DNA from: Mycolicibacterium aubagnense
GTDB lineage: Bacteria; Actinomycetota; Actinomycetes; Mycobacteriales; Mycobacteriaceae
Length of the DNA stretch: 64,000 bases
Direction of reading: 5' to 3'
Assembly (NCBI RefSeq): GCF_010730955.1
Contig: NZ_AP022577.1
Span: 1,736,001 to 1,800,000 of the forward strand
Position numbers and translations under genes: made by a program. The notes below the pieces were generated by a model. It saw only the letters and a list, made by a program, of their open reading frames with translations. It was not told the origin of the DNA and did no database searches. Shown piece after piece: positions 8,005 through 23,437 of this stretch. The first letter of the stretch is position 1. Every line of letters begins with the position of its first letter.

Positions 8005-8811
8005 TCAGCTCGTGGCGGGACGCAAATGCACGACGTCACCGGCAGAGACCGCGACGACGCCGTCGGCCGAATCGATCACCAGTGCACCGCCCGCGTCGAT
8101 GTCGGTCGCTTGCCCGACCACCTCGCGCCCACCGGGCAACTCGGCCCGCACCGACCGACCCAGGGTGGAGCTGTGCTTGCGGTAGACGGCCAGCAACTCG
8201 ACGTTTCCACCTGCTCGCCACTCGGCGATCCTGGCGTGCAGACGGTTCAACAGCACCGCTGCCAGCCGCTGCCGATCTGGTTGTGCCACACCGACACTCA
8301 GCAGGGAGACGGCCGCCGGATCGGGCAGTTCGCCGGCCGCCATTGACACATTGAGGCCGATACCGACGACGATGACGGGCGACCCGCCGGAGCCCGGTGC
8401 CGCGACCTCCGCGAGAATCCCGGCCAGTTTGCCGGTGCCCACCTGAACATCGTTGGGCCATTTGAGCACGGCCTGCACACCGGTCACCTCGGCGACCGCC
8501 TCGACGACGGCCAGCCCGGCCGCCAGCGACAACAAGCCCCAGGTTCCGCTCGGCACATCGGTGGTGTCCACCCCGACCGACACCAGAATCTGCGACCGCG
8601 GCACCGCTGACCAGCTGCGGCCCTGACGGCCCCGGCCCTCGGTCTGGTCCTCGGCGAACAGCGCCACGCCCGCGACATTCTCACCGGACTGCGCCCGCGC
8701 CGCCAGATCGGCGTTGGTGGAACCGGTTTCGGCCACCACCTCGACCCGCCAGCCCGCGCCGGCTTCTGCCTGGATCGCCGCGGCGTCCAGCGGCAGCAGG
8801 TCAGCAGTCAT
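8005..8811 (-). CDS. birA: Biotin--[acetyl-CoA-carboxylase] ligase BirA
   Basis: 268 residues. Attaches biotin to the carrier domain of AccA-type subunits through biotinyl-AMP. Visible elements: AETGSTNADL (about 28-36), the biotinyl-AMP loop EGRGRQGRSW (59-67) and LKWPNDV with Lys117. There is no N-terminal helix-turn-helix, so it is a monofunctional ligase and not a repressor. The start at ATG 8811 overlaps the end of the upstream lipase by 11 bp. Its substrate AccA3 and partner AccD5 are encoded in the same window; in M. tuberculosis birA and accD5 are adjacent, whereas here about 22 kb of polysaccharide genes separate them. Confidence 0.93.
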   Translation of the reverse strand: MTADLLPLDAAAIQAEAGAGWRVEVVAETGSTNADLAARAQSGENVAGVALFAEDQTEGRGRQGRSWSAVPRSQILVSVGVDTTDVPSGTWGLLSLAAGLAVVEAVAEVTGVQAVLKWPNDVQVGTGKLAGILAEVAAPGSGGSPVIVVGIGLNVSMAAGELPDPAAVSLLSVGVAQPDRQRLAAVLLNRLHARIAEWRAGGNVELLAVYRKHSSTLGRSVRAELPGGREVVGQATDIDAGGALVIDSADGVVAVSAGDVVHLRPATS

Positions 8812-10030
8812 TGGTTACCTTCTTCCCGGCGAACCGATCCGCCATCCAGTCGAGCATCTTCTGCGCCGCGGGCGGGTTGTGTCCACCCACCGGGTCGAAC
8901 TCTGTCGTCACGGTGCCACCGAGCGAGCAGGCCCGCCCGATCGCGGCCTTGGTCCACGCGGCATCGATGAACGGGTCCTGGCCCCCGTACCAAACGTACA
9001 GCGGCGCAGTCAGCCGCCGTTGCGGAAGCGCCCACGCCTGCAACAGATTCTGCAGCCGGTCGGCAGCGTCGGGCGAGACCGGAAGAAAGTCGCGCGGCCC
9101 GAGTTGCCCGGCGGCGACGGCACGTCTGTAGGCCCCGTCGGCACTGCAGTCCGTCAGCACATTCCAGTAGCGCGCGGCACCACCGTGCCGGTAGTCGTCG
9201 CGGTTCAGGTCCGGATGCAACCGGGCCAGCGATTCGATCAGCGCCTGCAGCACCGGCCGCTGCTCACTGGTCAACGTGCCCGTCTGCGCTTTGGTGACCA
9301 GGCCACTGACATCGGCGGCGGGAGCCACGGCGACGGCACCCACCAACGTGAGCTCGGGGGCGTAGGGCTCGGCTTGTTCGTCGGCCGCCCATGCCGCGGC
9401 GCCACCCTGGGAGTCACCGAACGCCGCCCACGTCGTCGACATATCGCTGAACACATGCCGCGCCGCGCGCACCGCGTCGATCAGGTTGAGGCCGGCGGTG
9501 CGGGCATCGGAGTACGGGTGAATGCCCTTGACGCCCAACCCCTGGTAATCGGGCAACGCGACGGCGTACCCGAGATTGATCACGACCTTCGCGATGGGCA
9601 GCAGGTTCATCAGCGTCGGCGACAGCGACGGTCCGCAGTTGTTGTCGATGCCGAGGGTGCCGTGACCGAGGCCCACCACCCGCCAGCCGCCCTTGGGCGC
9701 CTGCCCCAGCGGGGTCAGCACCGTGCCGGAGACGACGGTCTGCGCGCCGGTGTCACCCGAGGTGGAGTGGTACACCACGCGGGCGGCGCGAATCCCCTGG
9801 CCGTCGAAGGTGCTCGTCACCCCCGGCATGGTGGTCGCCGACAACAGGGTGCCCGGACCCGAGCCGGTGAGATCGGCAGAACCGATGGGCTCGGGCGCAC
9901 CCGACAACGGGATGAACATGTCCAGGACCTTCGAGGTCCCGATGAGCGCCAGCGGTCGCAGGTATGTCGCGGCGGTGACGCCACCGACGACCAGGACGGC
10001 CACCACTATCCACGGCAGGGCTTTACGCAT
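8801..10030 (-). CDS. Secretory lipase family protein, paralog 1 (membrane-anchored)
   Basis: 409 residues from ATG 10030 (a TTG one codon earlier is less likely). N-terminal membrane anchor at about residues 5-28 without a lipobox Cys, then an alpha/beta hydrolase of the secretory lipase (LIP, PF03583-like) family. Catalytic triad visible: Ser207 in GDSQG, Asp352 in GGQDPF, His384 in GGHNPP. The YQGLG motif near 165 and the STSG motif near 92 are shared with three other lipases in this window; paralog 2 (13141-14379) is closest. The enzyme should act outside the membrane on an acyl ester; the substrate is unknown. It lies 37 bp downstream of the sugar transferase and overlaps birA by 11 bp. 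Confidence 0.85.
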   Translation of the reverse strand: MRKALPWIVVAVLVVGGVTAATYLRPLALIGTSKVLDMFIPLSGAPEPIGSADLTGSGPGTLLSATTMPGVTSTFDGQGIRAARVVYHSTSGDTGAQTVVSGTVLTPLGQAPKGGWRVVGLGHGTLGIDNNCGPSLSPTLMNLLPIAKVVINLGYAVALPDYQGLGVKGIHPYSDARTAGLNLIDAVRAARHVFSDMSTTWAAFGDSQGGAAAWAADEQAEPYAPELTLVGAVAVAPAADVSGLVTKAQTGTLTSEQRPVLQALIESLARLHPDLNRDDYRHGGAARYWNVLTDCSADGAYRRAVAAGQLGPRDFLPVSPDAADRLQNLLQAWALPQRRLTAPLYVWYGGQDPFIDAAWTKAAIGRACSLGGTVTTEFDPVGGHNPPAAQKMLDWMADRFAGKKVTNDC

Positions 10031-10067: not shown

Positions 10068-11597
10068 TCAGTAGGCGCCGGAACCGCCGATGATGGTGCG
10101 GAAGGTCTTGGCCGCAATCAGCAGATCGTTGGTGATGGACCAGTTCTCGACGTACGACAGGTCGAGCCGCACCGAGTCCTCCCACGACAGGTCGGCCCGG
10201 CCGCTCACCTGCCAGAGCCCGGTGATCCCGGGCAGCACCAGCAGCCGGCGGCGAACCTGCTCGTTGTAGGTGTCGAATTCGCGGCGCAGCGGCGGCCGTG
10301 GGCCGACCACGCTCATGTCCCGGCGCAGCACGTTGAAGAACTGCGGCAGTTCGTCGATGCTGTAGCGCCGCAGGTACTTTCCGACCAGCGTGACGCGTGG
10401 GTCCTCGTGGATTTTGAACAGCACGCCGCTGCCGCTCTCGTTGAGGTCCAGGCTGATCAACTCGTCGACCATCCGGTCGGCGCCCTGCACCATGGTGCGG
10501 AACTTCGTCATCTGGAAAGGCTTGCCGTCCAAGCCGATCCGCTCGGAACGGTAGAACACCGGGCCCCGGCTGGTGAGCTTGATGGCGATGGCCGACAGCA
10601 CCATCAGCGGCGCCGTCACCGTGAGCGCGAACAGCGCGACGAAGACGTCGAAGGCACGCTTCTGCAGCTTCTTGGTCCCGCTGTACTGCGGACGCTCGAC
10701 GTGGATCAGCGGCAGGCCGGCGACCGGACGCATAGTGAGCCGCGGACCGGCGACGTCGATGACGCTCGGGGACACCACCATGTCGATACCCAGCTTGTCG
10801 AGCTCCCAGGACAACTCCCGCACACCTTCGGGGCCGAGGTGATCGGTGGTGGTCAGGGCGACGGCGTCGACGCTGGCGCTGGCGTTGGCGATGGCATCGG
10901 AGACCTGGGACTCGTTGCCGAGGATCGGCAACTCGCCGACCCCGGCAACGTCGAAGGTCCCGCCCGCCGGGCGCCCGGTGAGGCAGACGCCGACGACGGA
11001 GTAGCCGTACCACCACTCACGGTGCAGCGACTGCACCAGATTGCTCACGGCGCGCGGGTCACCGACGGCCAGCACCGAGGAGACACATTTGTTGCGGCGG
11101 CGCAGCCGCGCCAGGACGCGGCGGCAGATGGTCCGGGCGACCACCAGACCGACCAGGCCGAGCGGCAGCGCGACGGCCAGGTAGCCCCGGGCGTAGTCGG
11201 GGCGGAAGATCATCAGCGCGACGGCGATGATGCCGACGGTGGCGAGCGTCGCCGAGAACACCCGGCGGTACTCCTCCACACCGGCGCCCACGATGCGCGA
11301 CGAACGGGTGCGGTATGCGGCCAGCATCGCCAGCCAGATGACGGCGACGAACAGCGACAGCACCGAGTAGTACGAGAAGACGTGCAGGTACGTCGAAGTG
11401 AATTCCAGGGACGCATCCGGTGTACCGAGCTTGACGAACTGGGCACTTGCCAGGGCCAACACGACCACAAGCAGATCGAACGCGATCAGACACCAGCGGT
11501 AGCGCGTCTGCCAGGCCCGGTCAGCTAAAGGCGCGACTGCGCGTACGGGAGGCGCGGGAGATGCCTCGGGAAGGAAGAGTTCTTCTGCCACCGACAC
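10068..11597 (-). CDS. Exopolysaccharide polyprenyl glycosylphosphotransferase (WbaP/WcaJ type)
   Basis: About 509 residues with GTG 11597 as start (VSVAEELFLPEAS; a GGAGAGG precedes it by 11 nt; GTG 11591 and the longer frame to 11690 are alternatives). Transfers sugar-1-phosphate to undecaprenyl or decaprenyl phosphate, the first step of a repeat unit. Four N-terminal membrane segments, a central Rossmann-like region, a fifth hydrophobic segment before KRAFDVFVAL, and the catalytic domain with KFRTM, DELPQFFNVL, VGPRPP and GITGLWQVSGR. The 113-bp AT-richer gap upstream of it may hold its own promoter. It is the initiating enzyme of the cluster at 8.8-30.4 kb. Confidence 0.92.
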   Translation of the reverse strand: MSVAEELFLPEASPAPPVRAVAPLADRAWQTRYRWCLIAFDLLVVVLALASAQFVKLGTPDASLEFTSTYLHVFSYYSVLSLFVAVIWLAMLAAYRTRSSRIVGAGVEEYRRVFSATLATVGIIAVALMIFRPDYARGYLAVALPLGLVGLVVARTICRRVLARLRRRNKCVSSVLAVGDPRAVSNLVQSLHREWWYGYSVVGVCLTGRPAGGTFDVAGVGELPILGNESQVSDAIANASASVDAVALTTTDHLGPEGVRELSWELDKLGIDMVVSPSVIDVAGPRLTMRPVAGLPLIHVERPQYSGTKKLQKRAFDVFVALFALTVTAPLMVLSAIAIKLTSRGPVFYRSERIGLDGKPFQMTKFRTMVQGADRMVDELISLDLNESGSGVLFKIHEDPRVTLVGKYLRRYSIDELPQFFNVLRRDMSVVGPRPPLRREFDTYNEQVRRRLLVLPGITGLWQVSGRADLSWEDSVRLDLSYVENWSITNDLLIAAKTFRTIIGGSGAY

Positions 11598-11710: not shown

Positions 11711-12286
11711 TCAAGCACAGTGTCCCTGGAGGGCGGCCTTTGCAAACCCGGCAAACTGGTAGAAGAACGTCAGTTCCCACCCGATCGGTGAGAAGTCGTA
11801 GTCCCGGGGCAGGGCCACGGCAACCACCGAACCAGGGCTGGTCGAATAGCACTGGCGGAAGACCAACCGCGCGCGCGGGAGGTGGTACCGCCAGCTGACC
11901 ACGATGATGCGGTGCCATCCGCGGCCTTCGGAGAGCTGGCGCATCATCATGGCCTCGCCGCGGGTCGTCAGGACCTCCGGCTTCGGGCAGATCACCTCGA
12001 CACCCGGCGCCGGCGCGCAGGCGCTCTTCATTTGCGGGTCGCCGGGCACATACGGATCGGACAGCACGACCGTGCGGGCCCAGCCCTGCCGGGCCAGGCT
12101 CAGCCCGTACTGTTCGCGGCCGTCATGTTCGCCGGCCAGGACGATGATCGCGTCGGCCCGCTGCAGTGGATCAGATTTGGCGTTGGCGAACAACGCCACG
12201 CCGGCCAGCCCGACATCGACGAGCAGCACGATCGTGACCACAGCGATGACACGACGAATGACTCGGCCGAGTTCAACGCGCGGCAT
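11711..12286 (-). CDS. YdcF/DUF218 family membrane protein
   Basis: 191 residues from ATG 12286. One membrane segment at about 10-32, then a DUF218 domain (ADAIIVLAGEHDGREQYGLSL, TRGEAMMMRQL, WRYHLPRARLVFR). Members of this family occur in envelope and polysaccharide loci, sometimes named SanA or YdcF, without an established reaction. The start overlaps the end of the esterase gene by 14 bp. It ends the compact minus-strand run that starts at the Wzz-kinase gene. Confidence 0.78.
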   Translation of the reverse strand: MPRVELGRVIRRVIAVVTIVLLVDVGLAGVALFANAKSDPLQRADAIIVLAGEHDGREQYGLSLARQGWARTVVLSDPYVPGDPQMKSACAPAPGVEVICPKPEVLTTRGEAMMMRQLSEGRGWHRIIVVSWRYHLPRARLVFRQCYSTSPGSVVAVALPRDYDFSPIGWELTFFYQFAGFAKAALQGHCA

Positions 12287-13169
12287 ATTCCGCCAGTTGT
12301 CCGCCACACATCTCGCGGTACTGCTGCCACATACGGCGGCCCAGCTCGCGCTGCCCGGCGGCGCTGTAGTGCCGATCATCCGGGCTGTTGAACGAATCGC
12401 GCGGTCCCGGCACGAAGGTGCTCAGTGGCCAACGGTTCGGGGTGTCGGCGTGCACGGCGTCGATGGCCGCGTACGGCTTGCCGCTCAGCTCCATCTCCTC
12501 GGGCACCATCTGCCCCAGGACGAACGGCAGGCCGGCGCCGTACCGCGCGCGCATGTCCCCGATCAGCGAATCGAGCTTGGCCTGGTATTGCGCGCCGGAG
12601 ATCAGCGGCACGTCGGTCTCCCCCTGGTGCCAGAGCACGGTGGCGATCTCGCTACCCGGAAAACAGGCCAGTGCCGCATCGATGGCCGCCACGGCCCGGC
12701 GGTACAGGTTCACCCGGGTCTTACGGTCGGCCGGATCCCAGGTGTGCCCGTTTTTCGGGGTGAAGGAGGTGTCGCCCCGGGCACCGGGAATCAGCAGCAC
12801 CGCGCGGCCGGTCGCCTCAGCGAGTTGCTTGGCGAACGTGGGCCCGAAACCGACGTATTTACACGGTATTTCGTGTAGCAGTGGCTGCGTCGCCAATACC
12901 GCGGTGCCTTTCGACGGCCCGCACATCGCCCACTGGTGCACCAGCGGATGTGGCCGGTCCAACCCGTCGGGCTCGACGGGCAGCCCCATGCCGAACGCGT
13001 TGGACTGCCCGAGGATGGGCAGGATCAGGTATGGCCGCTCCGGGACCTCGACGGGTGTGCCGCGGGGCGCGATGAGGCGCTTCACGATGCATTTCGCCTC
13101 GATCAGCAACTGCTGATGAATCGGGCTGTCACCGTCGGGATTACGTGGTCCCCTGCGCAGGACAGTCAT
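12273..13169 (-). CDS. SGNH-type carbohydrate esterase (sialate O-acetylesterase-like)
   Basis: 298 residues from ATG 13169; the upstream open frame only mirrors the neighbouring lipase. SGNH/SASA family signs: ILPILGQSNAFGMG (Ser block I, about residues 47-61), VLWHQGETD (block III-like, about 180) and DRHYSAAGQ with the Asp-His pair near the C-terminus. The family removes acetyl esters from sugars. No signal peptide is evident, so it may act on cytoplasmic precursors. It overlaps lipase paralog 2 by 29 bp and ydcF by 14 bp. With the O-acyltransferase at 14380-15609 it suggests that repeat-unit acylation is edited. Confidence 0.8.
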   Translation of the reverse strand: MTVLRRGPRNPDGDSPIHQQLLIEAKCIVKRLIAPRGTPVEVPERPYLILPILGQSNAFGMGLPVEPDGLDRPHPLVHQWAMCGPSKGTAVLATQPLLHEIPCKYVGFGPTFAKQLAEATGRAVLLIPGARGDTSFTPKNGHTWDPADRKTRVNLYRRAVAAIDAALACFPGSEIATVLWHQGETDVPLISGAQYQAKLDSLIGDMRARYGAGLPFVLGQMVPEEMELSGKPYAAIDAVHADTPNRWPLSTFVPGPRDSFNSPDDRHYSAAGQRELGRRMWQQYREMCGGQLAEYAAR

Positions 13170-14379
13170 TGACCGCCTCGCCTCCCCTGAATCGTTCTGC
13201 CAGCCACCGCAATTGACCCGGACCGTCGATATCGGCGTGCCCACCGTCCGGCTGAAAATTCCAGACCACAGTACCGCCCAGCGAACACGCGCGCGCGATG
13301 GCAGCCTTGGTCCACTCCGGGTCAAGGAAGGTGTCCTTGCCGCCGTATACCACCGACATGGGGGCCGACAACGGCTGCTGCGGCAGCGCCCAGTCCCGCA
13401 GGTAGCGACGCAACCGGTCGGCTGCCGCCGCGTCCACCGGCGCGAGGTCGCCGGGCCCGATCGCATCGATGGCGGTGGCGCGGTAGGCGACGTCGGGCCC
13501 AGAACACGCCGACAGCACCTTCCAGTACCTGGCCGCCGCGCCCCGGCGGTAGTCGTCGCGGTTCAGGTCCGGATGCAGCCTGGCCAGCGACTCGATGATG
13601 GCCTGGAACGCCGCTTCCTGGTCCTTGGTCATGGTCCCGGACACAGCCTTGTCGACGATGCCCGCCACATCCGCCGACGGCACACTGGCCGCCGCGCCGA
13701 TCAGGTCGAGTTCGGGAGCATACGTCCTGGCCTGTTCGTCGGCGGCCCACGCCGCACCGCCGCCCTGCGAGCCGCCGAACACGGCCCAGCGGTTCGAGAT
13801 GTCGCGGAAGGTGTGGCGCAGGGCCCGCACCGAGTCGATGACGTTGCGACCCGCGGTGCGGCTGTCGGTGTAGGGGTGGACGCCGGGCGCACCCAGCCCC
13901 TGGTAGTCGGCGAGCGCAACCGCGAAGCCGAGGTGAACGAAGCCCTGAACCAGCGTCACGTTGCCGAGCAGATTCGCCGAGAGCGACGGCGCGCAGGACT
14001 GGTCGATGCCGGTGGTGCCGTGGGCCAGCGCCATCACCGGCCAGCCACCGTCGGGCGCCTGGCCCATGGGAGTGAACACCGATCCCGACACGACCGTCGG
14101 TGCATCGGTGTCACCGGAGGTGGATCGGTAGACCACCCGGGCGGCCTGCAGATCCTTGCCCTCTACCGAGTTGGTCAGGGCGGGCATGGTCATCGCGCTG
14201 ATCAGGCTGCCCGGGCCGGAGGCCGTGAGGTCGGCGGTCCGGACCGGCACCGGGTCACCGATCCCACCGTGCCGCAGTTTGTCCAGCGCCCAGCTGCCGA
14301 CCTGCCACATCACCGGCAGCGACGCCGCGATCAGAAGCAGAGCGGCAACCGCGGCACCCCACTGGATCGCACGGCGCAT
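13141..14379 (-). CDS. Secretory lipase family protein, paralog 2 (membrane-anchored)
   Basis: 412 residues. Membrane anchor at about 8-30, no lipobox. Full triad: Ser204 in GGSQG, Asp349 in GGKDTF, His381 in GGHADID. Most similar to paralog 1; both share the TADLT/SADLT-xSGPG and MGQAPxGGW/LGQAPxGGW stretches. Its ATG begins immediately after the stop of the acyltransferase (TGA-ATG with no gap), and its end overlaps the SGNH esterase by 29 bp. Predicted acyl esterase on the outer face of the membrane; the acyl-bearing substrate is not known. Confidence 0.85.
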   Translation of the reverse strand: MRRAIQWGAAVAALLLIAASLPVMWQVGSWALDKLRHGGIGDPVPVRTADLTASGPGSLISAMTMPALTNSVEGKDLQAARVVYRSTSGDTDAPTVVSGSVFTPMGQAPDGGWPVMALAHGTTGIDQSCAPSLSANLLGNVTLVQGFVHLGFAVALADYQGLGAPGVHPYTDSRTAGRNVIDSVRALRHTFRDISNRWAVFGGSQGGGAAWAADEQARTYAPELDLIGAAASVPSADVAGIVDKAVSGTMTKDQEAAFQAIIESLARLHPDLNRDDYRRGAAARYWKVLSACSGPDVAYRATAIDAIGPGDLAPVDAAAADRLRRYLRDWALPQQPLSAPMSVVYGGKDTFLDPEWTKAAIARACSLGGTVVWNFQPDGGHADIDGPGQLRWLAERFRGGEAVNDCPAQGTT

Positions 14380-15609
14380 TCAGGACCACCTGGTGCGGTA
14401 CCGCTTGGCGAACTTCATGACGGGGTCTTCCACTGTGTAGTACGTGACGGCCGACACCACCAGTGTCACCGCCAGGACGAGCGCCACGTTGCGCAGCATG
14501 CCGGGGAACGTGTCGCCGGCCATCAGGCCCCAGCGGCCCAGCAGCAGCATCAGCGGGAAATGCCAGAGATACGCCGACAGCGAGACCTTGCCGACGAACC
14601 GGAACGGCGCGGTGTCCAGCAGCTCGGCCAGCCCGGACCGCTCCGCGCGGAACAGCGGCGCGACGATCACCAGGATTGCCAGCGCGCACAACAGCGCCAG
14701 GGCCGACGTCGCGTACGGGTTGGCCAGGGCGATCAGGCCCAGCATCACCACGCCGACCGGGAACATCGCCAAGAAGCTGTAGAGCCGGACGCGGCGGCTG
14801 AGCTTCTCGCGAATCACCTTGTGCTCCATGGCCACCACCAGCACCGCGGCGGCCATGCCGAACGCGAAGGTGTCCGAGTTGGTCAGGAACGTCTTGGTGT
14901 AGACCGCGACCCAGTTGGCGCCCCAGTTGATCTCCGTCGGATCAGTCAGGTGCAGCGCCGAGATCATCCACGGCACGAAGGCCCGGCCGATGAATCCGAG
15001 CGCGATCAGCAGCGCCGGCCCCAGCGACACGATCAGCCACGGCCGCATCGTGGCGCGCCGGCCGAGGGCGAACAGCAGCATGCCCAGCAGCGGGATCGAC
15101 AGGTAGAAGGCATATTCCAGCGTCAGTGACCACGACGGGTTCAGCCCCGTCTGGAAGTACTTCGGGATGTACGACTGGGTCAGGGTGAGGTTGGCGATCA
15201 GCTGCCACGGGTCGGTGATCATGCCGGTGCCGTCTTCGGTGCGGGTCGGCTGCAGCGACGCGTTCTGCACGTAGACGATCTGCAGCAGGTAGTTGCAGAG
15301 CAGGAAGATCACCAGGTAGCCGGGCAGAATCCGGGCGATCCGGTGGACGGCGAAGTTCGCGGTGCTCGGCAGTTCGCGCTGCTCGATCAGGTTGCGCACG
15401 TACGGCAGGAACAGCAGGAACCCGCTGAGTGCGTAGAAGAAGATCAGCGACAGCCCGACCAGGTTGGTCTTCCAGTGGTAGGCGGTCAGGGGTGAGTAGT
15501 GACCGGTGACGTGCATGACGGCGACGCCCAGGCACGACAGTCCGCGGGCGCCGTCCAGCCCGATGATGCGGGCCCGGGTCCGGACCTGTGGCGAGGTCGG
15601 CGCGTTCAC
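14380..15609 (-). CDS. OafA/ExoZ-type membrane O-acyltransferase
   Basis: 409 residues from GTG 15609 (VNAPTSPQVRTRARIIGLDGARGLSCLGV). Acyltransferase-3 family with about ten membrane segments; typical LDGARGLSCLGVAVMHV at the start with a conserved His in the first segment, and FFYALSGFLLF soon after. Such proteins move acyl groups, often acetyl, onto sugars across or at the membrane. There is no C-terminal SGNH domain; a separate SGNH-type esterase is two genes downstream. The GTGA start overlaps the stop of lipase paralog 3, and its stop abuts the start of lipase paralog 2. A much longer in-frame extension to 16488 is antisense-like shadow and is rejected. Confidence 0.88.
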   Translation of the reverse strand: MNAPTSPQVRTRARIIGLDGARGLSCLGVAVMHVTGHYSPLTAYHWKTNLVGLSLIFFYALSGFLLFLPYVRNLIEQRELPSTANFAVHRIARILPGYLVIFLLCNYLLQIVYVQNASLQPTRTEDGTGMITDPWQLIANLTLTQSYIPKYFQTGLNPSWSLTLEYAFYLSIPLLGMLLFALGRRATMRPWLIVSLGPALLIALGFIGRAFVPWMISALHLTDPTEINWGANWVAVYTKTFLTNSDTFAFGMAAAVLVVAMEHKVIREKLSRRVRLYSFLAMFPVGVVMLGLIALANPYATSALALLCALAILVIVAPLFRAERSGLAELLDTAPFRFVGKVSLSAYLWHFPLMLLLGRWGLMAGDTFPGMLRNVALVLAVTLVVSAVTYYTVEDPVMKFAKRYRTRWS

Positions 15610-16868
15610 TGTCCTGCTCCCTGCGTGGATACCGTGGATATGAAAGATGGGCAACTGTTCGGCGCGGGGACACCGTCGAAGCGGTCCTTGATCCAGTCGT
15701 AGGACGAGGCCACATCGATGTCGGCGTGCCCCTTGGTGGGCTGGAACATGATGTCGATGACGTCGCCCAGGCGGCACGCGGCGGCGAGCGCCTTGTTCGT
15801 CCAGTCCGGCGGCAGCAGCGTGTCCTGACCGCCGTACATCACCAGCATCGGCGCGGACGTCGGCTCCTTGGGCAGGCTCCGCTTGGCCAGCAGTCCCTGC
15901 AGGGTCGCCTCCGCCTGCGGGCTCGCGGGCCGCAGATCGTCGGGCGTGATCTTCTCGATGGCCGCGGCCCGGGCGGCGGCGTCTTCGGTGTGGCAGGAGG
16001 CGAGGACGTCCCAGTGCTCGGCGACCGCACCGCGGCGATAGTCCTGCAGGTTCAGCGACGGGTTCTCGGCCGCGAGGGCGGCGAGGATCAGCTGCAGGAT
16101 GGCGTCCTGCTCTTTCGACAGGCTGCCGGCCGCGGCTCCGGAGGCCAGCCCGGTGAGATCGGTGGCCGGTGACAGGCTGACGGCGCCGACGAGGTTCAGT
16201 CCGGTGCCGTAGTGGGCGGCGAGTTCGTTTGCGGCCCAGGCGGCTTGACCGCCCTGGGACACCCCGACGGCCAGCCAGCGGTCCGAGGACTCCGGCACCA
16301 GCTTGTGCGCCGCGCGCGCCGCGTCGATGACGTTGTAGCCCACCGTCGTGGCGTCGGCGTACGGATGGCCCGCGGTGCCCGGGCCGAGCCCCTGATAGTC
16401 CGGCAGGCTCACCAGGTAGCCGGCTTTGACCAACGCGGTGATCGGCAGGGACAGCCCGGCCAGCGTCGAAGAACCGGACGGCCCGCACTCCCGCTGCATG
16501 CCGGACGTCGCGTGGCCGAAAACGACTATCGGCCAGCCGCCCGGCGGCGGCGTACCGTTCGGCACGAACACCGAACCCGGCACCTCGGTGTGCTCACCGG
16601 TGATCCCTGAGGTCGACGTGTACTCGATGCGGGCCGCGAGCGACACCGCCGATTTCAGCCGCAGATCCAGCGTGGGGAACGTGGACGCCGAGACGAGCGC
16701 GCCGGGCACCTGGCCGGCACCCGTGGTGTCGGGTTTGAGGTCGATACCCGGGACCGTAACGGGCCCAGCTTTTTTCGGTGCCGAATCGCTCTGGCAGGCC
16801 GGCGCGGTCAGGCACACCGCGACCAGCAGGCCGGCCGAGACCGCGCGCCGCAGCCGCCGCAAGTTCAT
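15606..16868 (-). CDS. Secretory lipase family lipoprotein, paralog 3
   Basis: 420 residues from ATG 16868. The signal peptide ends in CLTAPAC with Cys25 as a likely, slightly atypical lipobox, so the protein should be lipid-anchored outside. Triad: Ser204 in GVSQG, Asp349 in GGQDTL, His381 in KGHADID. Shares STSG, DYQGLG and the SQGG(Q)AAWAANE stretch with the other copies. ATGA overlap with the upstream Wzz-like gene (16865-16868) and GTGA overlap with the acyltransferase downstream (15606-15609), so it is translationally coupled to polysaccharide genes on both sides. Confidence 0.84.
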   Translation of the reverse strand: MNLRRLRRAVSAGLLVAVCLTAPACQSDSAPKKAGPVTVPGIDLKPDTTGAGQVPGALVSASTFPTLDLRLKSAVSLAARIEYTSTSGITGEHTEVPGSVFVPNGTPPPGGWPIVVFGHATSGMQRECGPSGSSTLAGLSLPITALVKAGYLVSLPDYQGLGPGTAGHPYADATTVGYNVIDAARAAHKLVPESSDRWLAVGVSQGGQAAWAANELAAHYGTGLNLVGAVSLSPATDLTGLASGAAAGSLSKEQDAILQLILAALAAENPSLNLQDYRRGAVAEHWDVLASCHTEDAAARAAAIEKITPDDLRPASPQAEATLQGLLAKRSLPKEPTSAPMLVMYGGQDTLLPPDWTNKALAAACRLGDVIDIMFQPTKGHADIDVASSYDWIKDRFDGVPAPNSCPSFISTVSTQGAGQ

Positions 16869-17533
16869 CCCGACGTCCCGGCGCTCGCGTCGGTGACCAC
16901 CCGCTCGAGGTGCCGACGACTCTGCACCCGGTCGAGGATGAGTGCCCGCGCGATCACCGCGAGTACGCACAGCGCGAAACCGAGAGCCGCTCCGGTCATG
17001 ACATAGGACCACACCCCGCCCACGCGTTCAGCCGGGCTGGCGTCGTCGATGACGACGAGCGTCGCGCTGGTACCGGCGACCAGGGCCAGCCGGTTGCCCA
17101 CCGTGACCAGGTCGCTCACGACCTCGTGCGCGATCTGCGTGGTCTGGTCGGCGTCACCGCCGGTGACCGTGACATTCAACATCGCTGTGGCACTGGGCAG
17201 TATGACGATCCGGGCGGCGAGTTCCTTGTCGGACTCGATGAGGCCCAGCTTCTGGATGATCGGTGCGGTGATCTGCGTGCTGGTGGCCAGCTGCCGGTAG
17301 GTCTCCATCAGGCCGAGCATGTTGGCGTCGCCGTAATAGGCGTCCAGCGGCGACGCACTGCCCTCGGTCCTGACGAACGCCGACGCGGTCGACTGGTACT
17401 CGGGTTTGGCGTTTTCCCAGTTCACCCAGCCCACCGCCGCGCTCACGATGGTGGTGACCAGCACCAGCAGCCAGCTGTTCTTCACGAACAGGAAGTAGTC
17501 GCGCACCCGCGGCACACCGGTCGGGGTGATCAC
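16865..17533 (-). CDS. Wzz-like chain-length determinant (no kinase domain)
   Basis: 222 residues. Two membrane segments (about 20-40 and 172-196) flank an extracytoplasmic region with YQSTASAFVRTE, as in Wzz/polysaccharide co-polymerases. There is a short cytoplasmic tail and no nucleotide-binding domain. Family members set polymer length with Wzy. Overlaps by 4 bp with lipase 4 upstream and with lipase 3 downstream. It is a second Wzz-type protein next to the Wzz-kinase fusion at 18813-20330, with the degenerate lipase gene between the two. Confidence 0.82.
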   Translation of the reverse strand: MITPTGVPRVRDYFLFVKNSWLLVLVTTIVSAAVGWVNWENAKPEYQSTASAFVRTEGSASPLDAYYGDANMLGLMETYRQLATSTQITAPIIQKLGLIESDKELAARIVILPSATAMLNVTVTGGDADQTTQIAHEVVSDLVTVGNRLALVAGTSATLVVIDDASPAERVGGVWSYVMTGAALGFALCVLAVIARALILDRVQSRRHLERVVTDASAGTSG

Positions 17534-18813
17534 GTCGCGCCCACACAGACGTCGGATAGGCGCTCCCCGTCGAACCGCGCCTGCAGCCAGGCCAGCGCGT
17601 TCTGCATCGTCTGGTCGTTGATCTGGCCGGTGTCCCCCACACCGCGCATCATCACGATCTGTTGGCCGCGGGCGCAGGCGGCCCCGGCGGCCGTCAGTAT
17701 GCCGGCCGGCGGGTTCACCGTGTCGGCCGTGCCGAACGCCACCAGCACCGGTGGATCATTCGGCCCCGCAGCCGGACTGGGCAATGCGACCGCGCCGAGG
17801 CGACGCTTCAGGTCCGCTACGGCGGCGGCGTCCTTGGCCTGAAAATCGTTGGGCGTCAACTGGTTCAGCGCCAGTTGAGCGGCCGCGACGTCCCGCGGGG
17901 CGCAGTCGACCAACAGGTCCCACTGGTCCTTGAGTTTCGCCGAACGGTGCGCGTCGAGGTCGAAGTCCGGCTGCATGGTCTGCAGGCTCTGCAGCATCCG
18001 AATCTGCAGCCGGTACTGATCGGCGGTCGCCAGCGCGGCCGTGCGGTCCGGGTCGGCGAGCGGCGCCAGATCGGCGATCGGGTTGACCGCCACCGCGCCG
18101 ACCATGTTCATGCCCGCGCCGTAGGCCCCGTTGCGTTCCGCCGCGGCCCACGCGGCCAGGCCCCCTTCACCGGCTCCAAGCGCACCCCAGTTGGTGCTGG
18201 TGGACGGTACGGCGCGATGGATCGCGCGCGCGGCATCGATGATGCTGTTTCCCAGGCTGGCCGTATCCAGGATGGAGTGCTGCCGGGCGGCTGAACCCGG
18301 GTCGATACCGAGCCCCTGGTAGTCGGACAGGGCGATGGCGAAGCCGCGCCGCAGATACACCGACATCCCTGTGGAATAGCCCCAGAACTGCGGGGCGAGG
18401 GTCGGCGCGCACTTGGGCAGCAGCCCGGTGGTGTCGTGCCCGAAGGAGATGATCGGCCAGCCGCCCTTGGGCGCCGGGCCCGGGGGCACCGCGATCAGCG
18501 CGCTGACCTGTATCGGACGGCCATCCACGCCGCTGGTCGAGCGGTAGACGATGCGCGCCGCGGTGGCACCTGCCTCGTCGAAGCTGCGGTCACCCTTGAC
18601 GGGCTTCAACTCGACCAGGGAACCCGGGCCGTCATCGGTGAGATCGGGCGCGGGGAGCGCCTCGGCCCCCGGGAACATCGGGGTGAGGTCCCGGGTGGGA
18701 CGGACGTCGTCACCCGGACGCGGCGGCACCGGACCTGACTGGCCGCACGCAGCCACGGTGACCAGCACCGCAGCCAGTGCCAGTACCGTGCGCCGCAACT
18801 CAACCTGACGCAT
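17530..18813 (-). CDS. Degenerate secretory lipase paralog 4 (lipoprotein pseudoenzyme)
   Basis: 427 residues from ATG 18813. Lipoprotein signal with VTVAAC (Cys23). It aligns along its length with paralogs 1-3 (STSG about 92, DYQGLG about 165, WAAAE about 222). However, the nucleophile motif GxSxG reads GAGEG, putting Gly215 in place of Ser, and the catalytic His position in KGHADID reads GVGDTGQI, with Asp394. Only the Asp (Asp364 in GTADT) is left. The codons (GGT and GAC) are clear on the minus strand and the frame is intact. Probably a fold-only binding or regulatory protein. It starts at a TGATG junction with the Wzz-kinase gene and overlaps the short Wzz gene by 4 bp. Confidence 0.83.
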   Translation of the reverse strand: MRQVELRRTVLALAAVLVTVAACGQSGPVPPRPGDDVRPTRDLTPMFPGAEALPAPDLTDDGPGSLVELKPVKGDRSFDEAGATAARIVYRSTSGVDGRPIQVSALIAVPPGPAPKGGWPIISFGHDTTGLLPKCAPTLAPQFWGYSTGMSVYLRRGFAIALSDYQGLGIDPGSAARQHSILDTASLGNSIIDAARAIHRAVPSTSTNWGALGAGEGGLAAWAAAERNGAYGAGMNMVGAVAVNPIADLAPLADPDRTAALATADQYRLQIRMLQSLQTMQPDFDLDAHRSAKLKDQWDLLVDCAPRDVAAAQLALNQLTPNDFQAKDAAAVADLKRRLGAVALPSPAAGPNDPPVLVAFGTADTVNPPAGILTAAGAACARGQQIVMMRGVGDTGQINDQTMQNALAWLQARFDGERLSDVCVGAT

Positions 18814-20330
18814 CACGGCTTCTGATGCGCCGCCGTCTTGGCCTCGGACGGGGATTCGGCCTGGGGTTCGGCCGTGGGTTCGGCCTTGGCTGCCGACTTC
18901 TTGCCGCCGCCGGACTTCGGGCCGTCGGACCCGCCGAGGTGGATCTTGAACTCGCCCGGTTCGTCGGTGGCGACCGAGCCGATCAGCACCGCGTTGGCAG
19001 ACTTCAGCGTCTGCACGGCGCGAGTGAGCGCGCTGCCGGTGGTGTGGCGAATGCGACCGACCAACAACGCACCGTCCGAAAGCGCGGCCGCGACGGCACC
19101 GTCGTTGTACTTGCCCAGGGGCGGCGTATCCACGACGACATAGTCGAACTGGCCGGACAGTTCGGCGAACAGGCTCGCGGTGTGGTCGCCCGCCCACAGC
19201 TCACCCGGACGCGTGGTGGCAGGACCTGCGGGCAACACCGCGATCCGATGCTGACCGACGGAAACCTCGGAAATCAAACCTTCGGCGAGGGTGTTCTCAC
19301 CGACCAGCACGGTGCTCAGGCCGCGATCGGCCGCCCCCTGGCGGGCCGCCGGCGTCAGGTCCAATCGCTGCGCCACCGCCGGGTTGCGCAGGTCACCGTC
19401 CACGAGCACGACGCGCTTGCCGGTCTCGGCGAGCACGGCGGCCAGATCGACGGCCACCGTCGTGCGGCCGTCGGACGGCGACGGGCTGGCCACCGCGATC
19501 ACCCGAGCGGGTTCGTCACGGTTTGCCGGCACGGTGAACCGCAAATTATTGCGGAGCTCGCGCAGAGCCTCCGCGTAGGCGCCGTCGGCGGCCAGATCGA
19601 CCACGGGCGCCTTGCTCCGGGCCGGGTCCGCGGGCAGCGCGCCCATGAGCAGCGAACCACTGAGGTCGGCCACCCGCTCACGCCCGCGGATCCGGCGGTC
19701 GATGATGCCGAGGGCGATCGCCACGATGAGCCCGAGGACCGTGCCACCGGCGATACCCATGCCGATCCGGGTGATCATCGAATACCCAAGGGGCTTGGTC
19801 GGATAACCGGCCTCGTCCACCACGATGGCGCCGGCGGCGGGGCTCCCGCCGCGCCGGGAGGTCTCGAGTTCGCCAACCAACCCGGCCAGCTGATCGGCGA
19901 CCGCGCTGGCATAGGTCTGAGCCTGCCCCGGGTCCTTGTCGGTGACCGAGACCTGCAACAACACGGTCTTCGGCAGCGGAACGGCCGTGATCTTCGACCG
20001 CAATTCGCTGGCTGAGATGTTGGCCTTGAGCTGATCCACCGCACGCGCGGCAACCTGCTCGCTCATGGCAAGGGTGGCGTAGGAGTTCACGCGGTCCTGG
20101 GAGAACAGGTTGTTCTGGTAGGCCTCGGTGACCGACGTGCCGTTCTGGGTCGCCACGAACAGCGTCGCACTGGACTGGTACTCGCGATCGCCGAATTGCC
20201 ACCACGACCAGCCCGCGACGCCCCCGACGACCGCCAGGATCACGATCGCCCACCAGTACCGGCCGAATATCCGCAGGTACTCTTTGATCTCCAAGGTCGT
20301 GCCCCTTATTTCAGCAATGCGACGGCTCAC
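18813..20330 (-). CDS. Wzz-BY-kinase-like polysaccharide co-polymerase (Wzc/CapAB type)
   Basis: 505 residues with GTG 20330; TTG 20294 with an AAGGGG upstream is a possible alternative start. Wzz domain with membrane segments at about 26-45 and 188-210, and YQSSATLFVATQ. Then a P-loop domain: Walker A-like SPSPSDGRTT (280s) in which the expected Lys is Arg289, Walker A' VVLVDGDLRNP (Asp311, Asp313) and Walker B DYVVVDTPP (Asp401). The C-terminal 40 residues are rich in Lys, Ala, Glu and Pro and have no Tyr, unlike the Tyr cluster of Wzc and CapB. It should pair with the Wzy-like protein encoded divergently at 20426. Confidence 0.87.
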   Translation of the reverse strand: MSRRIAEIRGTTLEIKEYLRIFGRYWWAIVILAVVGGVAGWSWWQFGDREYQSSATLFVATQNGTSVTEAYQNNLFSQDRVNSYATLAMSEQVAARAVDQLKANISASELRSKITAVPLPKTVLLQVSVTDKDPGQAQTYASAVADQLAGLVGELETSRRGGSPAAGAIVVDEAGYPTKPLGYSMITRIGMGIAGGTVLGLIVAIALGIIDRRIRGRERVADLSGSLLMGALPADPARSKAPVVDLAADGAYAEALRELRNNLRFTVPANRDEPARVIAVASPSPSDGRTTVAVDLAAVLAETGKRVVLVDGDLRNPAVAQRLDLTPAARQGAADRGLSTVLVGENTLAEGLISEVSVGQHRIAVLPAGPATTRPGELWAGDHTASLFAELSGQFDYVVVDTPPLGKYNDGAVAAALSDGALLVGRIRHTTGSALTRAVQTLKSANAVLIGSVATDEPGEFKIHLGGSDGPKSGGGKKSAAKAEPTAEPQAESPSEAKTAAHQKP

Positions 20331-20425: not shown

Positions 20426-21844
20426 ATGAACGCCCGTTTGGGTCAACTCGGCAATCTTAAATCATCGGCCGGGATTCTGGCTGTGATCGTGGGCTTGGTC
20501 TGGTTGGCGACGTCTTTCGGCCAGATCACTTTGTTGGGCATTGTCGCCATTGCCGCCCTGATTGCGGGCATCTATATCGGACTACGGCATCCGCTGTGGT
20601 TCTTGTACGGATTGGCGGTCGTCACCGGCGCGCTGCCTTTCGGGTATTTCCCGGGCGTTCACGTCCCCTTATATCTACCGTTCGCATTCGGTGCGGTGGT
20701 TGCGTTGTTCGTCCATCCGCGACTGGCCCGCCCGATTCACCCGTTGGAATGGTCGATTATCGCGCTGGTGGTCACCTCGATCGCGTCGGTCGCGGTAACC
20801 GGCGTGGGCATGGGCGACGTCATCCAGATCGTCCGGTGGTCCGCGGTCACCCTGGTCGCGATCGCACTGAGCAGCTTGTCGGGTGAACATCTGGAGAAGT
20901 TCGGCCGCATATTCGTCTACGCGACGCTGGCCAATGCGGTATTCGGCTTGTACATCGTGGCGTTCGACCCGAACCAGACGTCCTTCAAATACCTGCGGGT
21001 CTTCGGTTACGCGGCGGAGTACACCGCCACTCGCTTCGCATTTGCCGAAGGTGGCGCCGAACGGTCCATGCGACTGGGCGGCACCTCGGTGGACCCCAAC
21101 GCGGAAGGTATTGCGCTGGTGGTGTCGATCGCCGTCGGCCTGGTCGTGCTGGCGGGCTGGCAGCGCATCGTCGTGACCGGCATCTTCCTCGTCGCGCTGC
21201 TGCTCACCCTGAGCCGGGCCGGCATGTTCACCATCGTCGGCGGGGCGGTGCTGGTACTGGCCTTCCACACCATGCGGTCGAGGGACCGCGCACTCGCCAT
21301 CACCGCGATGGTCGCCGGCTTCGGCGCCGCGGCGGCGATACCCGAGGTGCGGACCAGATTCGCGCACTCGTTCAGCAGTGACGACGTCGGTTCCACTTCC
21401 CGAATTGATGCCATCCGGGAATTCCCCGACACCATGGCCGGATACTGGTTGTTCGGAAAGGGGTGGAACCGACTCGAATTCCGCGACGGAAACTACGCTT
21501 TCGTGCTGAACCACGTGTCGAACGCACCACTGCTCACGATTTACCGCGGAGGCATTTTCCCGGGTCTGGCGTTCTTTGCGATCATGCTGATCGGTTGCAT
21601 CATGAGCTACCGGGCGATTCGCTCCAATTCGTTTGCGTGGGCCGGGTATGGCGGTATCTACATCGGATTCTGCGTGGTTGCCCTCCAGCTCGACCACCCG
21701 GTGGTCGGCATCCCGCCGGCCACCCTCAAATTCTCCATTTTGCTGGCATTCCTCGTGCATATAGACCGAGAACGCCGCGATCAGGTGAGACTGCGACACG
21801 CCCAAGCAGATTCACAGCAAACGCCCTTGGCTGCTGCACACTGA
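20426..21844 (+). CDS. O-antigen ligase/polymerase-like membrane protein (Wzy type)
   Basis: 472 residues, about eleven to twelve membrane segments. A Wzy_C/RfaL-type segment contains LLLTLSRAGMFTIVGG at about residues 255-275, followed by a large periplasmic-side loop (FSSDDVGSTSRID...GKGWNRLEFRDGNYAFVLNHVSNAPL) and terminal membrane segments. Proteins of this kind polymerise or ligate undecaprenyl-linked glycans. The locus has a flippase and Wzz proteins, which favours polymerase. Transcribed divergently from the Wzz-kinase gene across a 95-bp gap. It is followed by the glycosidase gene after 48 bp. Confidence 0.88.
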   Translation: MNARLGQLGNLKSSAGILAVIVGLVWLATSFGQITLLGIVAIAALIAGIYIGLRHPLWFLYGLAVVTGALPFGYFPGVHVPLYLPFAFGAVVALFVHPRLARPIHPLEWSIIALVVTSIASVAVTGVGMGDVIQIVRWSAVTLVAIALSSLSGEHLEKFGRIFVYATLANAVFGLYIVAFDPNQTSFKYLRVFGYAAEYTATRFAFAEGGAERSMRLGGTSVDPNAEGIALVVSIAVGLVVLAGWQRIVVTGIFLVALLLTLSRAGMFTIVGGAVLVLAFHTMRSRDRALAITAMVAGFGAAAAIPEVRTRFAHSFSSDDVGSTSRIDAIREFPDTMAGYWLFGKGWNRLEFRDGNYAFVLNHVSNAPLLTIYRGGIFPGLAFFAIMLIGCIMSYRAIRSNSFAWAGYGGIYIGFCVVALQLDHPVVGIPPATLKFSILLAFLVHIDRERRDQVRLRHAQADSQQTPLAAAH

Positions 21845-21892: not shown

Positions 21893-23437
21893 GTGATGCC
21901 CGGCAAGGGTCGGATGCGATCTACGCGCCGCTTCTCCAGCGTGGCGTCGGCGATCGCCGGCAGCATGGTATGTGCCCTCATCGCCCTCACCGGCATTCCG
22001 GGGGACGCCCCGAAACGGTTGGGCGTGGCCGAGCGGGCCAACGTCGTCACGCTGCCGACCACGATCGGCTTCGCCGACTCCGACATCTACGGCATGTCGC
22101 CGGACGACGTGAACCGGACCTTGGCGCTGATGGCCAACAATCGGGTGAACACCATCCGATTGATGATCCCGTGGGCCGGGGTCGAGCCGATCCTCGGCCA
22201 GCTCGACTGGAGCCTGGTCGACAAGACGGTGAATGCCGCTGCCGCCATGAACATGTCGATCATCGCGTTCATCAACGCCACCCCGCCCTGGGCCATGTCG
22301 CCGGGCGGCTTGCCGCTGAGCAGCCGGCCTTCCAACCCGGACGCCTATGGTGCGTTCACGGCGAAGGTGGCCACCCGTTACAAGGGGAAGATCTCCGCGT
22401 ACGAGATCTGGAATGAACCGAACGCGGTGTTCTTCTACAGCCCCGCACCGGATCCCGCCGGCTACACCGATCTACTGAAGGCGGCCTACCCGCGCATCAA
22501 GGGCGTCGACCCGGACGCGACCGTGATCGGCGGGGTCGTCGGCGCCGTGGTGGACTTCGGCTCGTGGTCGATCAATCCGGTGCGGTTCATCGCCGGGATG
22601 TACGCCGCAGGCGCCAAGGGGAACTTCGACGCGCTGTCGTTCCACCCGTACAACTACAACCTGAAGTTCTCCGACGGCATGCTGATCGCGAATTCGCCTG
22701 TGCTGCAAGTGGTTCAGATGCGGCAGGTGATGCTCGACAACGGCGACGAGGAGAAGCGGATCTGGGCCACCGAGTACGGCGAGCCCACCTCGGTGGTCAA
22801 CGAGGCCACCCAGGCCGCATACCTGCGGGACATCTACACCAAATGGCAGGAGATGCCGTACACCGGCCCGCTGATGGTGTACACCACGCGCGACCGGCAG
22901 ACCGGAAGCAACCAGGCGGACGCCACGGTCGGGCTCTACCGCAGCGACTGGACACCGAAGCCGGCAGCGGCCGACCTGGCGGCGACCATCGCCGCCGGAG
23001 TGCCGAAATCACCGGAATTCCAGCGCTTTTCCCAGATCACCGATCCCGCACACGGCTCGGTCCTGAGCCCGGTGTTCAAAGCCACCACGACGGTATGGGC
23101 GCAGGTGCGCACGATCAACACCATCTACGAGATGCCGGGCGGCTACGTGTCATCGCCGCGCCCGGCGGCCGACATTGCGATGCAGCGCAATTCCGTCCCT
23201 GCGAGCGTATTCGCCAATGGCTATCAGGACTTTTCCGGAGGCCAGCAGTTCCGGGTCTGGTGGTCGCCCGAGACCGGTGCCCACTGGGCCTCGAGCGCCT
23301 TCGCGCAGGCCTGGAAACCGCAACTGGGGCTGGCCACCAGTGACGAGCACTACGTCAACGGCAGCAACCGCGTCGATTTCCAGCACGGTTACATGATCTG
23401 GGCGCCGTGGGTCGGCGTGCAGGTCTACTACACCTGA
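21893..23437 (+). CDS. Secreted TIM-barrel glycoside hydrolase (GH39/GH5-like) with C-terminal LGFP-like repeats
   Basis: 514 residues, GTG 21893 or ATG 21896. N-terminal signal or anchor about 13-35. Clan A-type barrel: YEIWNEPN with acid/base Glu175 and IWATEYGEP with probable nucleophile Glu294. The last 140 residues contain two LGFP-like units (FSGGQQFRVWWSPETGAH; LGLATSDEHY...FQHGYMIWAPWVG), a module found on mycolate-bacterial envelope proteins and thought to hold them to the wall. Probably trims or edits the polymer made by this locus. Ends 10 bp inside the convergent glycosyltransferase gene. Confidence 0.83.
   Translation: MMPGKGRMRSTRRFSSVASAIAGSMVCALIALTGIPGDAPKRLGVAERANVVTLPTTIGFADSDIYGMSPDDVNRTLALMANNRVNTIRLMIPWAGVEPILGQLDWSLVDKTVNAAAAMNMSIIAFINATPPWAMSPGGLPLSSRPSNPDAYGAFTAKVATRYKGKISAYEIWNEPNAVFFYSPAPDPAGYTDLLKAAYPRIKGVDPDATVIGGVVGAVVDFGSWSINPVRFIAGMYAAGAKGNFDALSFHPYNYNLKFSDGMLIANSPVLQVVQMRQVMLDNGDEEKRIWATEYGEPTSVVNEATQAAYLRDIYTKWQEMPYTGPLMVYTTRDRQTGSNQADATVGLYRSDWTPKPAAADLAATIAAGVPKSPEFQRFSQITDPAHGSVLSPVFKATTTVWAQVRTINTIYEMPGGYVSSPRPAADIAMQRNSVPASVFANGYQDFSGGQQFRVWWSPETGAHWASSAFAQAWKPQLGLATSDEHYVNGSNRVDFQHGYMIWAPWVGVQVYYT

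Follow-up and report, generated by a model that had tools for sequence, protein, structure and literature searches.

A putative Wzx/Wzy-type polysaccharide locus of Mycolicibacterium aubagnense carries a conserved set of LIP-family lipase genes, one of them predicted to be non-catalytic

The 64,000-nucleotide (nt) stretch of Mycolicibacterium aubagnense DNA analyzed here (the window; RefSeq assembly GCF_010730955.1, contig NZ_AP022577.1, forward-strand positions 1,736,001 to 1,800,000) contains a putative Wzx/Wzy-type polysaccharide locus in which four genes of the LIP lipase family (PF03583) stand among the genes for polymer assembly. Our reading is that this is a conserved Mycobacteriaceae module with a built-in set of LIP proteins, related to Candida antarctica lipase A (CALA), which would form a membrane-anchored, partly non-catalytic ester-processing complex acting on an acylated polymer. 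We infer the chemistry, and we give this reading as a whole a probability of about 0.5. The tie between the LIP genes and polysaccharide assembly is, at the level of sequence, strongly supported, because two genera show the same gene order, the LIP lineages for the most part go with particular neighbors, and none of ten loci around paralogues of the first gene has a LIP gene.

Read along the minus strand, the genes are wzzK, LIP4, wzz, LIP3, AT3, LIP2, SASA, DUF218, sugar transferase, LIP1, and birA. The first gene, wzzK (18813..20330), encodes a Wzz domain and a degenerate ATPase domain resembling that of the bacterial tyrosine (BY) kinases, as judged from Pfam (AAA_31 over the cut-off; Wzz scoring 23.6 bits where the cut-off is 25.5), the ortholog set described below, and motif and tyrosine counts. 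LIP4 (17530..18813) encodes a LIP-family lipoprotein with GAGEG and GQIND in place of the catalytic serine and histidine, and is predicted to be non-catalytic. The single Wzz-type chain-length protein encoded by wzz (16865..17533) is a weak match in both Pfam (E-value 9e-4, under the cut-off) and NCBIfam (TIGR01006, E-value 1e-9, far under its cut-off). LIP3 (15606..16868; GVSQG), LIP2 (13141..14379; GGSQG; assigned by Pfam, alignment, and a structural model), and LIP1 (8801..10030; GDSQG) encode LIP-family hydrolases with intact triads. The remaining members are an AT3 membrane acyltransferase (Acyl_transf_3, PF01757; 14380..15609), a SASA-family carbohydrate esterase (PF03629; 12273..13169), a DUF218 (YdcF-like) protein (11711..12286), both of these and AT3 assigned by Pfam, and a priming sugar-phosphate transferase (Bac_transf; TIGR03025 over the cut-off; 10068..11597, start uncertain). 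Pfam finds LIP in the four window proteins with E-values of 3.2e-11 to 2e-20 (43.6-73.8 bits, cut-off 23). The 6.3 Mb genome has nine LIP-type genes (eight PF03583 matches, four of them outside the locus, and one from a LIP-alignment search), and four of the nine fall inside 10 kb, a clustering that random placement of nine genes matched in 0 of 200,000 trials.

An earlier note, made from the sequence letters alone, had described lipase genes alternating with polysaccharide genes in one translationally coupled run. With small corrections that alternation is confirmed by the Pfam gene order. The junctions are TGATG at wzzK/LIP4, ATGA at wzz/LIP3, GTGA at LIP3/AT3, and TGA followed directly by ATG at AT3/LIP2, all as the note had listed; the LIP4/wzz junction, which it had given as ATGA, is GTGA. 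LIP2 and SASA overlap by 29 nt (SASA start 13169) and SASA and DUF218 by 14 nt (start 12286), so the packing is indeed dense over 11711-20330, but the sugar transferase and LIP1 genes come after this run with gaps. The gap between DUF218 and the sugar transferase is 113 nt if the latter starts at GTG 11597, and the frame is open to GTG 11690; LIP1 overlaps birA by 11 nt. The fourth lipase placed behind the sugar transferase is LIP1, again a Pfam LIP match. All four proteins are LIP-family members as claimed, but LIP4 lacks the catalytic residues of a lipase. Anchors, which the note had ascribed to every copy, were judged by eye: the lipobox of LIP4 is good (TVAAC) and LIP2 and LIP1 have a hydrophobic N-terminal helix without cysteine, but LIP3 has its cysteine in a poor lipobox (TAPAC) in this species, several of its orthologues having good ones. 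No signal peptide was seen in the SASA protein.

We searched for the window wzzK in 396 same-genus genomes, 159 of which had a match at E ≤ 1e-30. An ortholog class of 54 loci, including the window, is defined by E ≤ 1e-120 and an identity of 49% or more (the best match outside it has E 1e-88 and 38%), and the genes around these loci were labelled by hidden Markov models and phmmer. Order counts rest on the labelled genes, so an unlabelled intervening gene or a diverged AT3, Wzz, or DUF218 gene would escape them, and the stretches of L042, L057, L058, and L068 are incomplete. The next labelled gene after wzzK is a LIP gene in all 54 loci; the order wzzK-LIP-wzz-LIP is present in 51/54 and continues through AT3-LIP in 34/54. 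Spacing is conserved as well, with a LIP/wzz start offset of −3 in 49 of 51 loci and close offsets or overlaps from AT3 to LIP (within −12 to +3 in 42/42), wzz to LIP (37/52), LIP to AT3 (26/43), and wzzK to LIP (29/54, and 17 more at +5). At E ≤ 1e-10, no LIP gene was found in the ten wzzK-paralogue loci (L090-L092, L108-L112, L114, L123). Clusters of at least three LIP genes occurred, among 37 same-genus genomes, in G000, G011, G034, and G035, which are the four with a wzzK ortholog. Loci whose contig is not cut hold three to six LIP proteins, and copy number still varies, since some hold five or six (L054, L055, L060-L067, L071), in eight of these with one behind SASA. Elsewhere, in L199:5948-9742 (genome G103, with only a wzzK paralogue listed), a divergent LIP gene lies near a sugar transferase gene and has a Wzz gene (PF02706 over the cut-off) two frames upstream, and L164 has a similar LIP gene beside weak Wzz-like frames without a Pfam match.

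The module extends to a second genus. When 298 genomes from the order were searched with a LIP alignment, 54 had matches at E ≤ 1e-40. Most of these showed no cluster; three LIP genes were clustered in a genome of another genus, which the names of matching proteins indicate to be Rhodococcoides. All 37 Rhodococcoides genomes searched had a match at E ≤ 1e-90, and 21 loci from 21 of them were inspected (G662 and G692, with adjacent LIP genes, lie outside this set). Nineteen of the 21 combine a Wzy-like gene with wzzK-LIP-wzz-LIP-AT3-LIP-SASA, some with a glycoside hydrolase gene before the last LIP, which places the module in at least 19/37 genomes; Wzz and glycoside hydrolase labels were doubled here by overlapping query frames, and the count considers main-gene order alone. 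The other two (L195, L196) are of another type, in which a wzzK-like gene (Walker A threonine) is followed by three LIP genes in a row. The search of other genomes for LIP genes beside Wzz or AT3 genes, which the earlier note had proposed, yields a LIP gene behind wzzK in the 54 genus loci and the module order in 19 loci of Rhodococcoides. That note had also held that lipase families scattered independently of polysaccharide genes would speak against the tie: the locus lineages are not so scattered, but related LIP genes outside such loci are common.

To relate the copies to each other, we built a LIP tree with 108 rows, of which 98 are LIPs drawn from 24 of the 54 loci and 10 are others; our trees are of a quick kind, without bootstrap, and several rows sit on long branches. 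Three main clades appear. The wzzK-slot clade (support 92) contains the first LIP of all 24 loci. A wzz-type clade (99) holds 20 of the 22 wzz-slot rows and the mis-slotted L077 row, as well as six rows from other positions (three behind SASA and three that follow another LIP) and three solitary LIPs. The third clade (99) takes in all AT3-slot (19/19) and all sugar-transferase-slot rows (12/12). The three LIPs of one Rhodococcoides locus fall one in each clade, so the three main lineages were apparently already separate in the common ancestor of both genera's loci. The LIP lineages thus seem mostly slot-specific, standing behind the Wzz-kinase-like protein, Wzz, or AT3, the last lineage including the sugar-transferase copy. 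Anchors also differ by slot: a loose, self-written lipobox pattern matched 57/57 LIPs in the wzzK slot, 36/49 in the wzz slot, 0/42 in the AT3 slot, and 0/27 in the sugar-transferase slot. The 57 comprise 54 first LIPs and three mis-slotted rows, the second LIPs of L077, L079, and L080, where a small wzz was scored as wzzK; the residue count for this slot given below uses first LIPs only.

These results bear on the suggestion of the earlier note that dosage with each partner matters, which we take to mean that the copies are recent duplicates supplying one activity in amounts matched to each neighbor. Several LIP genes do overlap or abut a neighbor's gene, as matched dosage would have it. The copies are, however, 33-56% identical to LIP2, they differ in anchor by slot, and one is inactive; the LIP trees, with clades separate before the two genera's loci diverged, lead us to reject the idea, to which we give hardly any weight.

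Alignment locates the Ser-Asp-His triad in LIP1, LIP2, and LIP3; in LIP4 the serine and the histidine are missing, the motif being GAGEG instead of the GxSQG of the others and the histidine being absent from the catalytic place. Across the genus, serine is missing in 26 of the 54 wzzK-slot LIPs, and histidine is missing in the same 26. Among 161 other LIPs, 159 have the triad, one is truncated, and one, an extra copy in L071, lacks serine. The inactive LIP4s form a single clade (SH-aLRT 100; 13 of the 26 are in the tree), and a wzzK tree of 62 rows divides the loci alike into those with active and inactive LIP4 with one change, which points to one origin, a single loss of both residues. In all 12 pairs of inactive LIP4 genes that were compared, some of which share members, the ratio of nonsynonymous to synonymous substitution rates (dN/dS) is 0.06-0.19; it is 0.01-0.24 for the other slots and the active loci in the same run; judged by these ratios, the inactive LIP4 is under purifying selection. 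A decaying pseudogene was considered and rejected on the same 12 ratios together with full-length frames in diverged loci. Structural models of LIP4 (pLDDT 90.8) and LIP2 (pLDDT 92.3) have a CALA-like fold: with E about 3e-19 to 2e-15 and TM 0.56-0.73, their 12 best Foldseek rows are matches to CALA-type lipases, to LipA of Xanthomonas, and to a hydrolase of Legionella. As an inactive copy that is conserved among active sisters, LIP4 is most simply read as a non-catalytic subunit.

The LIP proteins might instead be general lipid-scavenging or envelope lipases that do not act on the polymer and are held in the operon by block inheritance. LIP proteins are common lipases, with the four other PF03583 matches in this genome, and relatives occur singly in several genera. 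The locus LIPs, however, form one clade (99) with three solitary relatives, apart from seven other LIPs; the slots are mostly kept across two genera, with genes overlapping those of their partners, and a copy without catalytic residues is still conserved. We regard this explanation as improbable.

Loss of the catalytic serine recurs outside LIP4. Six database proteins (P0126, P0278, P0279, P0280, P0281, P0293) are LIP-LIP fusions in which the N-terminal half lacks the serine (replaced by A, G, T, D, G, and A, respectively) and the C-terminal half has serine, aspartate, and histidine in 6/6; in a seventh LIP-LIP protein, P0188, the N-terminal half is truncated. These seven are all the proteins longer than 520 residues among 314 listed (the best 120 each of 137, 1193, and 719). 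None of the seven shows a Wzz or AT3 domain, and on this sample a fusion of LIP to Wzz or AT3 was rejected. Solitary LIPs derived from the wzz-slot (LIP3) lineage, nine of which were picked among the matches listed, lack the serine in 9/9. A PF00756-type esterase with GWSxG lies in the stretch of seven of these nine and is adjacent or overlapping in six (Pfam was run on two of these stretches). One example is in the window genome itself: its ninth LIP-type gene (G000:C1:725162-726340; L165:9103-10542) lacks the catalytic serine, and its frame overlaps that of a PF00756-type esterase. Related pairs are found in other Mycobacterium genomes (L093, L094, L167, L169, L172), and more distant LIP relatives occur singly in several genera.

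This recurrence suggests that inactive LIPs may serve active esterases as partners. A further-reaching version, which we find doubtful, is that inactive LIPs are obligate subunits of active alpha/beta-hydrolases, a pairing that would have arisen at least three times (LIP4, the fusion N-halves, and the solitary LIPs beside a PF00756 membrane esterase), and that in the polysaccharide module the LIP pair and a kinase-dead Wzz co-polymerase replace tyrosine phosphorylation in coupling polymer length to acylation and release.

The kinase-like domain of WzzK is unusual in its own right. Aligned on the window protein, the Walker A lysine is arginine in all 54 genus loci, and arginine is also present in all 19 module loci of Rhodococcoides, leaving out a fragment row of L182; the wzzK paralogues keep lysine in 3/3. 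The last 60 residues contain zero or one tyrosine in all 54 genus WzzK proteins, compared with four to six in the three paralogues. One such paralogue, 39% identical, is encoded elsewhere in the window genome (G000:C1:3784932-3786233). Against the NCBIfam model eps_fam (TIGR01007), WzzK is a near miss (101 bits, cut-off 108.05), and it has neither the GK[ST] Walker A motif nor the C-terminal tyrosine cluster that mark BY-kinases. An ordinary tyrosine autokinase was rejected on these motif grounds (Walker A arginine, no tyrosine tail). The BY-kinase-like domain is therefore predicted not to be a working tyrosine autokinase, and chain-length control here probably does not proceed through the usual tyrosine phosphorylation cycle.

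Several observations weigh against parts of this picture. The 54 loci share descent, so their counts are not independent events, and the block may also have passed whole between the two genera. In 28/54 genus loci LIP4 bears the triad, and in the 19 Rhodococcoides module loci every LIP does, LIP4 included, so a non-catalytic subunit would not be obligatory. The tie to AT3 is looser, since the LIP-AT3 pair was detected in only 43 of the 54 loci. Slots and lineages do not coincide fully: two of the 22 wzz-slot rows (L043, L055) carry an AT3-type LIP, and the AT3 and sugar-transferase slots are not cleanly split in the tree. The LIP-LIP fusions belong to the AT3-slot lineage, not to LIP4, and the N-half of P0278 keeps its histidine. 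Two of the nine solitary inactive LIPs have no PF00756 partner in their stretch, L168 keeps its histidine, and single LIPs outside the clade and module keep the serine (L158-L164, L166, L171, L173, L175, L176). Arginine in Walker A is by itself no proof that nucleotide binding is lost.

Based on the gene set and its conservation, we propose how the module may work. The LIP proteins would be located at the outer surface of the plasma membrane, where they, the Wzz proteins, and AT3 may assemble into a heteromeric complex at the polymer exit. This complex would process ester-linked acyl groups of the growing polymer, by hydrolysis or by transfer, and LIP4 of the window lineage, its catalysis lost, would be retained as a subunit with a binding or scaffolding role toward the active LIPs. 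We favor action at the outer face on polymer esters because of the anchors, the AT3 and SASA neighbors, the esterase relatives, and a report of ester-bound fatty acids in some Rhodococcus polysaccharides.

If transfer prevails, the LIP proteins would be acyltransferases: through them the exported polymer would receive fatty-acyl groups, from envelope lipids or via AT3, and would thereby be fastened to the lipid-rich outer layer. CALA-type enzymes are capable of acyl transfer in water, and the AT3-to-LIP starts are uniformly close (42/42). In Rhodococcus rhodochrous and R. erythropolis, fatty acids are reported to be ester-linked to the sugar backbone of exopolysaccharides (PMC12786566), which makes an acylated polymer plausible here. 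The closest solved relatives are, however, named esterases and lipases, AT3 and SASA could already supply acylation and deacylation, and no sequence feature seen separates hydrolysis from transfer. We consider a transferase role possible, if on balance unlikely. The text of this review does not contain "gene cluster," "biosynthesis genes," or "Wzy," and its passages on these polymers name no genes; among the open-licence papers listed in our searches, no title or start of an abstract describes LIP genes in a mycobacterial or rhodococcal Wzx/Wzy locus.

Should the proposed ester-processing complex exist, mycobacterial and rhodococcal polysaccharide assembly would include lipase-fold proteins as fixed parts of the export machinery, and the module would offer a genetic handle on the fatty-acyl or acetyl esters of actinobacterial surface polymers. 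The repeated rise of catalytically dead LIPs beside live esterases is a testable case of pseudoenzyme evolution, and a kinase-dead Wzz protein would be a natural test of whether chain-length control needs tyrosine phosphorylation.

The rest of the locus lies on the other side of wzzK. A polymerase resembling Wzy and O-antigen ligases (Wzy_C over the cut-off) is encoded divergently from it (20426..21844, plus strand), adjoined by a gene for a glycoside-hydrolase-like protein with an LGFP repeat (21893..23437, plus strand); a cellulase-family protein with LGFP is also encoded in a Rhodococcoides locus (L157:3288-4838). On the minus strand follow a glycosyltransferase (23428..24576), a Wzx-like flippase with a Polysacc_synt match below the cut-off (24573..25742), and three more glycosyltransferases (25774..26901, 27633-28778, and 28778-29926). 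Of the Wzx/Wzy parts, the priming transferase and Wzy score over their cut-offs, and Wzx and both Wzz domains only below those of Pfam. The left border is a biotin-protein ligase gene that we take to be birA (8005..8811, minus strand), and the right border a carboxyltransferase gene, presumably accD5 (31158..32786, plus strand); both names follow from gene order, together with sequence in the case of birA. These borders are 22.3 kb apart in the window (8811-31158), and 0.1-5.9 kb apart in 10 of the 11 same-genus genomes listed as lacking a wzzK ortholog. In the eleventh (G004, L197) they are about 21 kb apart, with purK and epimerase, methyltransferase, and glycosyltransferase genes lying in between; the birA-accD5 interval is a possible hot spot for glycan genes. 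The nearest named record to the window wzzK is that of Mycolicibacterium llatzerense, at 92% identity.

Several known systems share parts of this architecture. Exopolysaccharide and capsule loci of the Wzx/Wzy type with a Wzz/BY-kinase co-polymerase have a like set of priming transferase, Wzy-like polymerase, Wzz-type proteins, and glycosyltransferases, with a flippase to which the window offers a weak Wzx-like counterpart; loci of the window type add three to six LIPs and a kinase-like domain with a Walker A arginine and no tyrosine tail. By these sequence features, we class the locus as Wzx/Wzy-type and apparently new in its unusual LIP set and its predicted kinase-dead co-polymerase. The CALA/LIP superfamily (Candida antarctica lipase A, the Ustilago lipases; PF03583) shares the fold and, in LIP1 to LIP3, the serine, aspartate, and histidine, but the locus LIPs are anchored and belong to a polysaccharide operon, and LIP4 lacks serine and histidine. 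In sequence, the closest solved structure is LipA of Xanthomonas oryzae (3h2g-3h2k; E 2.5e-23, matched over profile positions 72-233), a rice cell-wall-degrading esterase secreted against the plant wall; LipA is named for its action on a polysaccharide wall, whereas the locus LIPs are instead part of a biosynthetic locus. In the O-acylation systems that combine AT3 and SGNH, OafB and OatA, an AT3 membrane acyltransferase likewise has esterase-type partners, but in the loci described here those partners are of the LIP type, and two of them stand behind Wzz-type genes rather than behind AT3.

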